Part shown: positions 19,712-30,459 of the stretch, in pieces
How positions within the stretch are numbered: position 1 is the stretch's first letter
Layout: every line of letters begins with the position of its first letter
Source: Candidatus Saccharimonadota bacterium
GTDB taxonomy: Bacteria > Patescibacteriota > Saccharimonadia > Saccharimonadales > JAGQMS01
Length of the DNA stretch: 41,403 nt
NCBI GenBank assembly: GCA_020428535.1
Contig: JAGQMS010000005.1
Coordinates: 2,275-43,677, forward strand
Reading direction: 5' to 3'
The notes under the pieces: model-generated
The model's database searches: none
The model's input: the letters and a program-made list of their open reading frames with translations, nothing else
Told to the model about the DNA's origin: nothing
Program-made: the position numbers and the translations under genes

Positions 19712-19734
19712 CGGGGATTGGCGCAGTTGGCTAG
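19712..19734 (+). repeat. Duplicated 5' fragment of tRNA-Pro
   Basis: 23 bases identical to the first 23 bases of the intact tRNA-Pro (19884-19906). The identity stops abruptly at repeat A, in what would be the D-loop. It cannot fold as a tRNA. Confidence 0.9.
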
Positions 19735-19832
19735 TGTGAGACGAGCCTGTGGCTCGTCGCAAGGACATCCACACTTCAAAATTTATTTTGAAAGCAGTGG
19801 TGTCGGGGTCGCCAGAGGTGACCGCGGGAACC
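19735..19832 (+). repeat. tRNA-linked structured repeat, copy A
   Basis: Member of a four-copy family. Stem 1 is GACGAGCC/GGCTCGTC with a 3-nt loop, followed by GCAAGG. Stem 2 is CCAC...GTGG enclosing TTCAAAA/TTTTGAA, with a 3-by-5 internal loop. A third short stem is followed by AGAGGTGA. It lies between a tRNA-Pro 5' fragment and the intact tRNA-Pro, on the same strand. It is the most diverged copy at its 3' end. Confidence 0.75.
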
Positions 19833-23217: not shown

Positions 23218-23370
23218 TTTGGTACCCCGGGAGGGATTCGACCTACCTTCGGCAGGCCCGCAACTTCGCGATGGCAAACATAGTTTGCCTCGGAAGATTG
23301 CCTTGCGACGAGCCACCGGCTCGTCTCACCCCGACCTTTTTGGTCGGCTGCAAGTCGAACTGCAGACCAA
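23218..23370 (-). repeat. tRNA-linked structured repeat, copy B
   Basis: Reading minus: hairpin CCGACC/GGTCGG, GGTGAG, stem 1 GACGAGCC/GGCTCGTC, GCAAGG, stem 2 CTTC...GAAG enclosing GGCAAAC/GTTTGCC, then CCGAAGGTAGGTCGAATCC. It ends in a copy of the tRNA-Arg(TCT) 3' end: 23218-23241 is identical over 24 bases to 23403-23426. It lies downstream of the intact tRNA and its terminator. Confidence 0.8.
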
Positions 23371-23481: not shown

Positions 23482-23517
23482 AGAGTACCAACTATATTGT
23501 AAATCGGTTCGAATCTG

Positions 23518-23618
23518 GATTTGACTCACCTTCGGCGAGCCCGTCGCCACGTCTTTGCAAAACAAGTTTGCAAGAGTGGGCTCCCTTGCGAAATGCCACC
23601 GGCATTTCTCACCCCAAC
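23518..23618 (-). repeat. tRNA-linked structured repeat, copy C
   Basis: Reading minus: GGGGTGAG, stem 1 AAATGCC/GGCATTT, GCAAGG, stem 2 CCAC...GTGG enclosing TTGCAAAC/TTTTGCA, GGCGA/TCGCC hairpin, then GAAGGTGAGTCAAATCC. Nearly identical in its second half to copy D. It directly follows a degraded 5' part of tRNA-Arg(TCT). Confidence 0.82.
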
Positions 23619-28726: not shown

Positions 28727-28803
28727 GGGGCTGTAGCTCAGCCGGTTAGAGCATCTGCCTCTTAAGCAGAGTGTCGAGGGTTCGAGTCCCTCCAGCCCCT
28801 CCA
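28727..28803 (+). tRNA. tRNA-Lys (anticodon CTT)
   Basis: Acceptor GGGGCTG/CAGCCCC, anticodon arm TCTGC-CTCTTAA-GCAGA, T-loop TTCGAGT, CCA encoded. Confidence 0.95.
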
Positions 28804-28823: not shown

Positions 28824-28900
28824 GCACCCGTAGCTCAGCGGATTAGAGCATCTGTCTTCGGAACAGAGGGTCGGCGGTTCGAATCCGTCCGGGTGTACCA
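28824..28900 (+). tRNA. tRNA-Arg (anticodon TCG)
   Basis: Acceptor GCACCCG/CGGGTGT, anticodon arm TCTGT-CTTCGGA-ACAGA, T-loop TTCGAAT, CCA encoded. Its last 22 bases are repeated at 29070-29091. Its 3' edge plus terminator is repeated at 30416-30459. Confidence 0.95.
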
Positions 28901-28937
28901 AAAAATCAGAACCTCAGCTTGTCTGGGGTTTTGTTTT
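28894..28937 (+). repeat. 44-bp direct repeat, left copy (tRNA-Arg end plus terminator)
   Basis: Identical over all 44 bases to 30416-30459, 1522 bp away. It contains the last seven bases of tRNA-Arg(TCG) and the terminator hairpin. Together the two copies flank structured repeat D and the fic gene. Confidence 0.95.
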
Positions 28938-28940
28938 TTT
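28910..28940 (+). terminator. Terminator of the tRNA-Lys/Arg transcript
   Basis: Stem AACCTCAG/CTGGGGTT, 5-nt loop, T-rich tail. Confidence 0.85.
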
Positions 28941-28952
28941 GGATTTCTGATA

Positions 28953-29091
28953 GTTTGAGTCGACGACGCCAAGGGTCGGTGTGAGGAATGCCTGTGGCAT
29001 TCCGCAAGGGAGTCCACTCTTGCAAACTTGTTTTGCAAAAGATGTGGCGACGGGCTCGCCGAAGGTGAGTCGAATCCGTCCGGGTGTACCA
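28953..29091 (+). repeat. tRNA-linked structured repeat, copy D
   Basis: TCGGTGTGAG, stem 1 GGAATGCC/GGCATTCC (28985-29003), GCAAGG, stem 2 CCAC...GTGG enclosing TTGCAAA/TTTTGCAA, hairpin GGCGA-CGGGC-TCGCC, then GAAGGTGAGTCGAATCC. It runs into a 22-base copy of the tRNA-Arg(TCG) 3' end (29070-29091), including the base after the acceptor. Confidence 0.85.
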
Positions 29092-29106
29092 TTTCGCTTA
29101 CGCTTA

Positions 29107-29132
29107 AACTCCTCAACTTAAGGAGTTTTTTA
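29107..29132 (+). terminator. Terminator after repeat D
   Basis: Stem AACTCCT/AGGAGTT followed by TTTTTT; the tail overlaps the fic stop codon. The stem can also serve the convergent fic transcript, with a weaker tail. Confidence 0.75.
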
Positions 29133-30215
29133 CGAAATGATATCTAGCAGTTCTGCAAATGCATAAAGTGTAGTTCCACCAGAGCCTTTTTGGCCTATCT
29201 CTAGTAACACCCTATCAGTCTGTAGTTGCTCTACTAACCTTAGAGCGGTCATTCTAGACGGTATTCCGAGGCGTTTCATTATTTCAGGGGGGCTAATAAC
29301 AGGTGACTCGAAAAGTAAGTCAATGAGCCTAAGGATGTATGGAGATTTAGAATTTTCATACTTTTTCTTTAGAGATCCATTAAGATCCCTGATTTTATCC
29401 ACGAGCACTAGTGTTTCTTTAGCTTGTTCTGCTATTGCAGACAGAAAGAACTTTAACCATGGCTCGTAATGTCCAGTGGTATCTACGACACGTAGGGCAT
29501 CACGATACTGATTAGCTCTCGCCTCGAAATAACCACTACTATACACAATAGGAAGGGAGAGCTCTCCTTTATAGTAAAGAATAAGCGGTATAAGTAAGCG
29601 CCCAATTCTACCATTCCCATCTTCAAATGGGTGAACGGCTTCGAATTGATAGTGAATTACACCTGCTTTTACTAGGTTGATTTCATCTGCTTCGTCAACA
29701 TACTCAATCAAGTTATCAATGTAACTGACGACGTGCATATGCTCTGGTGGGATATACAGCGCTTTTTCGATTGGATCCCCCTCTTTTTCTGCAATCCATA
29801 CGTCACCGTCTCTAAACGCCCCCAACTTCCCTTTATAACGTACTCCCGTTAGAAGTTTGGAGTGAAGAGATTTAATTAGATGCTTGGTGATTTTTTTGCG
29901 GCCCTGTATAGCAAAGATAGCATCATACATAGCGGACCTATAATTAGAGACTACTGGCGTATCGGTATGCATAGCCTTACCACCCGCAGCGTAGACAAAA
30001 ACATCTTTAGAAGTACTTTGAGTGCCTTCTATTTTTGAACTTACTTCAGCCTCCTTTGCAACAAGTGGTCCTATTAAATGAAGGGCGTTGTGCAGAGTCT
30101 TCTGTGATCCCTGTAATAATCCTATCGCATATTGGGCTTCGGCTAACTCACGAGCAAATAGTCCATAATCCAGTTTTATGGGTAGATAATGTGGTTGGTG
30201 GTACTTGACTGACAT
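29130..30215 (-). CDS. Fic-domain AMP transferase with inhibitory helix and winged helix
   Basis: 361 aa. The N-terminal Fic_N part holds the inhibitory motif SSKIEG near residues 60-65, matching (S/T)xxxE(G/N). The Fic core has the full active-site motif HPFEDGNGRIGR near residue 197-208, and a C-terminal winged-helix region has ISPPEIMKRLGIPSRMTA. Such proteins transfer AMP (or similar) to target hydroxyls and are held off by their own inhibitory Glu. Start ATG 30215 fits the promoter TTGATA-17-TATATT. It is the only gene between the 44-bp direct repeats. Confidence 0.93.
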   Translation of the reverse strand: MSVKYHQPHYLPIKLDYGLFARELAEAQYAIGLLQGSQKTLHNALHLIGPLVAKEAEVSSKIEGTQSTSKDVFVYAAGGKAMHTDTPVVSNYRSAMYDAIFAIQGRKKITKHLIKSLHSKLLTGVRYKGKLGAFRDGDVWIAEKEGDPIEKALYIPPEHMHVVSYIDNLIEYVDEADEINLVKAGVIHYQFEAVHPFEDGNGRIGRLLIPLILYYKGELSLPIVYSSGYFEARANQYRDALRVVDTTGHYEPWLKFFLSAIAEQAKETLVLVDKIRDLNGSLKKKYENSKSPYILRLIDLLFESPVISPPEIMKRLGIPSRMTALRLVEQLQTDRVLLEIGQKGSGGTTLYAFAELLDIIS

Positions 30216-30222
30216 AATTAAC

Positions 30223-30251
30223 AATATATCACCTATGTATCAGATTATCAA
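30223..30251 (-). promoter_or_regulatory. fic promoter
   Basis: Reading minus: TTGATA (30251-30246), 17-bp spacer, TATATT (30228-30223), then 7 nt to the ATG. A TGATACA motif lies within the spacer. Confidence 0.65.
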
Positions 30252-30353
30252 TATTATGATACAATTCTCTGAACTTGTACCACTGGTGATACATAAATGC
30301 TTGTGCGTAACATTGATCAGTAGAACCTGATACAAGATACTGTTTTTGTATCA
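30236..30353. promoter_or_regulatory. Cluster of five TGATACA motifs (candidate operators)
   Basis: TGATACA on plus at 30257, 30287 and 30328, and on minus at 30236-30242 and 30347-30353. The last two (30328-30353) form a perfect inverted repeat TGATACAA/TTGTATCA. The first lies inside the fic promoter, so a repressor bound here could block it. Confidence 0.6.
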
Positions 30354-30415
30354 CTGATGTTACAGGATTATTGATTGGGTAGCTATAAATAGAGTTCTAA
30401 CCTGTGCTAAAATGC

Positions 30416-30459
30416 TGTACCAAAAAATCAGAACCTCAGCTTGTCTGGGGTTTTGTTTT
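30416..30459 (+). repeat. 44-bp direct repeat, right copy
   Basis: Exact copy of 28894-28937; it carries seven bases of the tRNA 3' end and the complete terminator hairpin (stem at 30432-30452), now without a tRNA in front. Confidence 0.95.

Follow-up and report, generated by a model that had tools for sequence, protein, structure and literature searches.

The DNA downstream of tRNA-Arg(TCG) in the window, the whole stretch of 41,403 nucleotides analysed here, is best read as the product of two nested insertions, a reading to which we give a probability of about two in three. A small DNA-hairpin element, D, would have settled beside the tRNA gene, and a module carrying a fic gene would later have entered the spare tRNA tail of the D unit.

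A tRNA tail copy interrupted by fic

The intact tRNA-Arg(TCG) gene (28824..28900, plus strand; ARAGORN and Rfam), parent of the copies described below, follows an intact tRNA-Lys(CTT) (28727-28803; ARAGORN). Its 3' end and terminator T1 form a 59-bp stretch (28879..28937, plus strand), of which the 44 bp at 28894-28937 recur letter for letter on the same strand at 30416-30459, at a spacing of 1522 bp. The neighbouring bases differ at both ends (G/C before, T/G after), and a chance origin of this exact repeat is far outside expectation. The sequence-only reading had reported both the identity and the differing outer bases, which we verified. It had also worried that the terminator copy might be a common repeat, but a genome search found it nowhere else.

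That reading took the 44-bp repeat for the att pair of a fic island, inserted as one unit of 1522 bp. A second repeat, absent from it, leads to a different interpretation. At 29070-29091 (plus strand), where the D unit ends on the right, 22 bp of the tRNA-Arg 3' tail, CCA included, recur exactly (TCGAATCCGTCCGGGTGTACCA). TGTACCA is the overlap between this piece and the 44-bp one; it forms the left boundary of the fic insert (29085..29091, plus strand) and, as the first 7 bp of the distal 44-bp copy, its right boundary. When 29085-30415 is removed, the 15 bp before and the 44 bp after join into TCGAATCCGTCCGGGTGTACCAAAAAATCAGAACCTCAGCTTGTCTGGGGTTTTGTTTT, identical to 28879-28937 at all 59 bases. 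Therefore, fic interrupts a copy of the tRNA end and terminator that was there before it, it is bounded by the heptamer on both sides, and the 44-bp repeat is older than fic. This repeat belongs to the D unit, which copied the tRNA tail and terminator and was later split by fic at the CCA end, so that the locus holds two nested layers rather than a single 1522-bp unit.

The first layer begins with a small hairpin, CGACG..GGTCGG (28961..28979, plus strand), adjoining the D core. It may be a decayed antisense fold-back of the tRNA T-arm, an assignment that is weak in this copy; the fold-back is intact in two relatives (loci L020 and L084). The core itself, called 'repeat D' in the sequence-only reading, comprises three hairpins (28979..29077, plus strand; 109 bits and E 1e-23 with covariance model R1, and covariation) and lies within a partial tRNA-Arg copy, in its T-loop. 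The second layer contains a terminator-like hairpin, CTCCTCAACTTAAGGAG, recognised from its sequence between the D tail and the fic stop (29092..29129, assigned to neither strand), then fic (29130..30215, minus strand) and its control region with five TGATACA/TGTATCA sites (30216..30415, minus strand). The distal 44-bp copy (30416..30459) is the remainder of the D unit's copy of the tRNA end and terminator. Six other D units downstream of tRNAs (L004, L083, L084, L098, L118 and L161) show the tail and terminator layout without fic, which is the state we infer at tRNA-Arg(TCG) before fic.

In the proposed course of events, D would first have become established beside tRNA-Arg(TCG), seated in the T-loop of an additional, incomplete tRNA copy, leaving the real tRNA intact and a D unit ending with the 59-bp copy. 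The 1.3-kb fic module would then have entered this spare tail exactly at TGTACCA (the acceptor end with CCA), leaving the heptamer on both sides and splitting the copy into the 22-bp and 44-bp repeats. A recombinase encoded away from the locus may have carried out this second step, integrating the module site-specifically at the acceptor end of tRNA-Arg. D would thus have offered fic a spare place to land next to a tRNA that is essential.

Could the whole 1522 bp instead be one tRNA-integrated island, with the 44 bp as attL and attR, an integrase since lost, and D carried inside? The exact repeat does cover the tRNA end and terminator, and the closest fic homologue, in genome G027, likewise lies at a tRNA-Arg. 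Yet that homologue has no D, D units with the same tail and terminator copy but no fic occur at many tRNAs, and the whole source genome gave only one match to a Xer-type tyrosine recombinase, on another contig. We rejected insertion in one step because the D tail and distal repeat rejoin into a perfect 59-bp copy, and we regard the single-island history as improbable.

tRNA genes are classic landing sites of mobile DNA. The fic locus resembles tRNA 3'-end islands in its place at a tRNA 3' end, its intact tRNA and its direct repeats, the insert being flanked by TGTACCA within the 22-bp and 44-bp copies of the tRNA end. It differs from them in lacking an integrase, in using a tail supplied by D, and in its core of 7 bp, whose shortness is a point against the nested reading. 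The likeness drawn by the sequence-only reading thus holds for an added segment, an unharmed tRNA and the missing integrase (the insert holds fic only, and no recombinase was found at the fic/D locus). It does not extend to a one-step event with 44-bp att sites.

The same reading had proposed a search for empty sites and had allowed that fic and both repeats might be fixed in all relatives. In ten relatives with the same upstream HTH/DUF3467 gene, the region at tRNA-Arg(TCG) is free of both D and fic, so these are not fixed at the locus. The far flank is not conserved, the 103-aa gene being absent from the loci of these relatives, so that no empty site matched on both flanks was found. This gene has no Pfam match and no credible PDB match. 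At locus L023, an antisense tRNA 3' half follows the terminator downstream of tRNA-Arg(TCG), without any D.

The fic gene and its homologues

The sole gene of the 1.3-kb insert, fic, is of the stress type and encodes a 361-aa protein matching the Pfam families Fic (1.8e-18) and Fic_N (7e-18). Its active motif, HPFEDGNGRIGR, and a motif of the inhibitory-helix type, SSKIEG, agree with the patterns HPFx(D/E)GN(G/K)R and (S/T)xxxE(G/N) of self-inhibited Fic AMP-transferases. The nearest solved structures are SoFic-like: by sequence, the protein shares the Fic_N, Fic and C-terminal regions of SoFic-type Fic adenylyltransferases (PDB 3eqx, 3zcn; E ~1e-27). We predict a self-inhibited AMP-transferase that carries a DNA-binding tail of its own, and the gene is likely autoregulated through the candidate TGATACA sites.

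Related fic genes occur in 13 of 149 genomes. The closest, in G027 from another family (91% identical in amino acids, 76% in DNA), lies downstream of tRNA-Arg(GCG) in the same orientation. Its right end, AATGC followed by TGTACC, is as at tRNA-Arg(TCG), and the control region is conserved, including the TGATACA/TGTATCA sites; no D was found at this copy. By eye, a probable RelE/ParE-type toxin-antitoxin pair lies between the tRNA and the G027 homologue (L100). G063 holds a distant fic behind an additional tRNA-Glu tail copy of 14 bp, beyond a hairpin unit that has decayed.

A family of D elements in Saccharibacteria

A genome search with the locus returned related stretches of ~100 bp elsewhere, each beside a tRNA. 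Covariance model R1, built from ten copies and with an alignment now of 138 sequences, describes a three-hairpin element of ~97 bp, with 12 copies in the 783-kb source genome. Within the order (Saccharibacteria), 66 of 149 genomes carry it, the richest with 27 copies. The window holds three more copies. One precedes tRNA-Pro(TGG) and occupies the D-loop of a 5' copy of tRNA-Pro (19734..19830, plus strand). The other two flank tRNA-Arg(TCT): the downstream one has a tail copy of its own (23234..23331, minus strand), and the upstream one is seated in the T-loop of a tRNA-Arg 5' copy that has decayed (23517..23614, minus strand).

When 84,980 species genomes were scanned for the D pattern, 83 stretches were returned, the great majority labelled Saccharibacteria or Saccharimonadia; the few other labels probably reflect misbinning in part. 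Across a 380-genome sample of the phylum, D was confined to members of the order, the sole exception being a marginal fragment of 58 bp located where a contig ends. Viral carriage was rejected, the pattern having no match in the IMG/VR collection. We found no published description of D in full-text literature searches of incomplete coverage, and within the literature searched the family is previously undescribed. Loci L135 and L139, from MAGs labelled Saccharibacteria and Doudnabacteria, share the same D flank, and a D unit lies in a 'Thiothrix' MAG (L156); these and a 'Parcubacteria' MAG (L191) are probably misbinned or misnamed.

For 21 of 75 D copies the nearest sequence neighbour came from the same genome, where 5.3 were expected, as within-genome spread predicts. 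Common descent with gene conversion would give such clustering too. Protein clustering of the D loci revealed no obvious shared mobile-element gene, the neighbours being mostly the ordinary ones of the tRNAs.

D elements sit in hairpin loops

A tRNA on the same strand immediately precedes 76 of the 150 distinct copies and immediately follows another 48. The ends of D reproduce the neighbour's own tail (Arg-TCG, Arg-TCT, Arg-GCG, Tyr, Trp, Val, Ala), whereas upstream copies beside Gln, Arg-TCT and Pro reproduce the tRNA 5' half instead. Copied tails match their own tRNA at 18.4 of 22 positions on average, versus 12.7 of 22 for other isotypes, with the own tRNA best or tied in 46 of 59. Downstream of tRNAs, the distance from element to CCA is constant and corresponds to a T-loop seat in 40 of the 51 scorable tails; upstream, the seat is the T-, D- or anticodon loop. 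In 21 of the 25 cases with a readable junction, insertion into the T-loop has replaced exactly 2 nt.

Most D elements adjoin an intact tRNA. Three tRNAs, otherwise complete, are interrupted by D in a loop and have no intact neighbour (L170, Ala-GGC; L172, Gly-GCC; L179, Glu-CTC). Elsewhere D occupies the loop of a common REP-like repeat, tcatcccgaGCG[D]GTCGAG (L182, L146), or lies inside another D (L088, L166). The common denominator of these sites is the hairpin loop.

An antisense tRNA 3' half accompanies downstream D units in 48 of 75 cases, giving a sense-antisense-sense layout, and occurs at 16 of 99 tRNAs without D. This layout turns at the terminator, and such fold-backs at tRNAs without D (L023, for instance) would be expected if the whole arrangement arose by replication error, that is, by template switching at tRNA and terminator hairpins with D as an old passive passenger. 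However, the fold-backs are enriched beside D, and both its presence in unrelated hairpins and the constant 2-nt replacement point to specific insertion; pure replication error therefore seems unlikely to us. Downstream of a tRNA-Lys and a tRNA-Arg (L035, L073), a different hairpin (GGGTATGTCCAGTGGACATACCCC and relatives) lies inside an antisense T-arm copy, which suggests further loop-inserting families.

Does D act as DNA or as RNA?

In the stems of the 138 aligned copies, 97.7% of cells pair and double changes affect 23 of 25 pairs (0/500 shuffles). G-T and A-C combinations number 19 and 24 when two special positions (columns 142-153 and 9-52) are excluded, versus 149 and 1 in the tRNA stems of the same loci. 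The signature of structured RNA, in which G-U is tolerated over A-C, is thus not found in D: G-T is as rare as A-C, so pairing is conserved as for DNA, which favours a role of folded DNA over one of RNA. Some role at the RNA level, or one tied to a single strand, would still be compatible with the two special G-T positions, and the nearly fixed G-T at columns 142-153 is possibly a recognition mark.

An RNA function, as a tRNA intron, a ribozyme or a regulatory tRNA-like RNA, would fit the strong folding of D, its location on the tRNA's strand in nearly all neighbours, and the complete tRNAs that hold it in a loop. Against this stand the G-T counts and the intactness of most neighbouring tRNAs. 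Moreover, the interrupted tRNAs are isotypes whose codons other tRNAs may read, and D has no Rfam match (the window matched Rfam only at its tRNAs). Of the alternatives considered, this one appears to us the least probable.

We favour mobility of D as DNA, probably as a folded single strand entering the loops of extruded hairpins with the help of an enzyme supplied in trans. Integron attC sites and the folded attP of the CTX phage are recombination substrates that work as folded single-stranded DNA. D would resemble them in this folded-DNA role, although it has no integron integrase and no attC boxes were recognised in it. It is possible, though we advance it only tentatively, that D represents an unrecognised form of DNA-hairpin transposition in Saccharibacteria, in which a folded element of ~97 nt enters tRNA loops by an exact 2-nt replacement and builds partial tRNA copies, later used as spare integration sites by cargo such as fic.

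Every tRNA loop, and certain other hairpin loops too, seems to serve this family as a target. The family also creates spare tRNA ends open to cargo, and does so in bacteria whose genomes are very small and hold few recombinases. The covariance model and its alignment make it a concrete family for the study of DNA-hairpin-directed insertion in Patescibacteria, and annotators should beware that tail copies of D units beside tRNAs can mimic the att sites of lost islands.

Candidate enzymes and related elements

The analyses run identified no enzyme for the D step or the fic step. An extra tyrosine integrase was discarded as a candidate: with D or without it, almost every genome yields one strong Xer-type match, and in most genomes this is the only one. 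Reverse transcriptase shows no association with D (12/30 versus 54/119), and IS110/bridge-RNA transposases are present in only 4 of 149 genomes. Y1_Tnp transposases of the RAYT/TIRYT type are associated with D, both unstratified (33/42 versus 33/107) and when stratified within families (odds ratio 6.7, p 3e-4). They are not required, however: several D-rich genomes have no Y1 match (G007, G084, G099 and the complete G035, with 16 copies).

D could accordingly be a large REP-like element that targets palindromes and is mobilised in trans by such Y1 (HUH) transposases. The within-family association, the conservation of the hairpins at the DNA level and the published precedent of REPs placed inside palindromes (PMC3733652) all agree with this. 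It is weakened by the D-rich genomes lacking Y1, by the examined Y1 genes, which are flanked by palindromes other than D and have D next to one only (L219), and by the source genome, 87% complete, in which no Y1 transposase was detected. We consider this a real contender, though short of even odds.

Like the REP/REPIN elements of RAYT transposases (kin of IS200/IS605), D consists of short DNA palindromes in many dispersed copies, inserts within palindromes and is statistically linked to Y1 transposases. Unlike them, it has three hairpins in ~97 bp, targets tRNA loops with a fixed 2-nt replacement and is accompanied by partial tRNA copies. No GTAG/CGTC tag was recognised in it; its left end is a near-invariant TGA(G/A) and its right end is variable (GTGAG/GTAGG/GTGAC). 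The Rickettsia palindromic elements (RPE), at least as cited in PMC3733652, are ~100-bp palindromic sequences inserted within genes. By that description D is alike in size and palindromic form, but it is seated in hairpin loops, chiefly of tRNAs, and its host lineage is unrelated.

Genomes of family f37 are Y1-positive with few and weak R1 matches, and may hold a diverged D family missed by this model. Several RAYT/TIRYT-like genes of Saccharibacteria (L205-L208, L214, L217, L226 and L229) are each flanked by a palindrome of their own, for example TGTACAAGGACGTTCCTTGTACAG.
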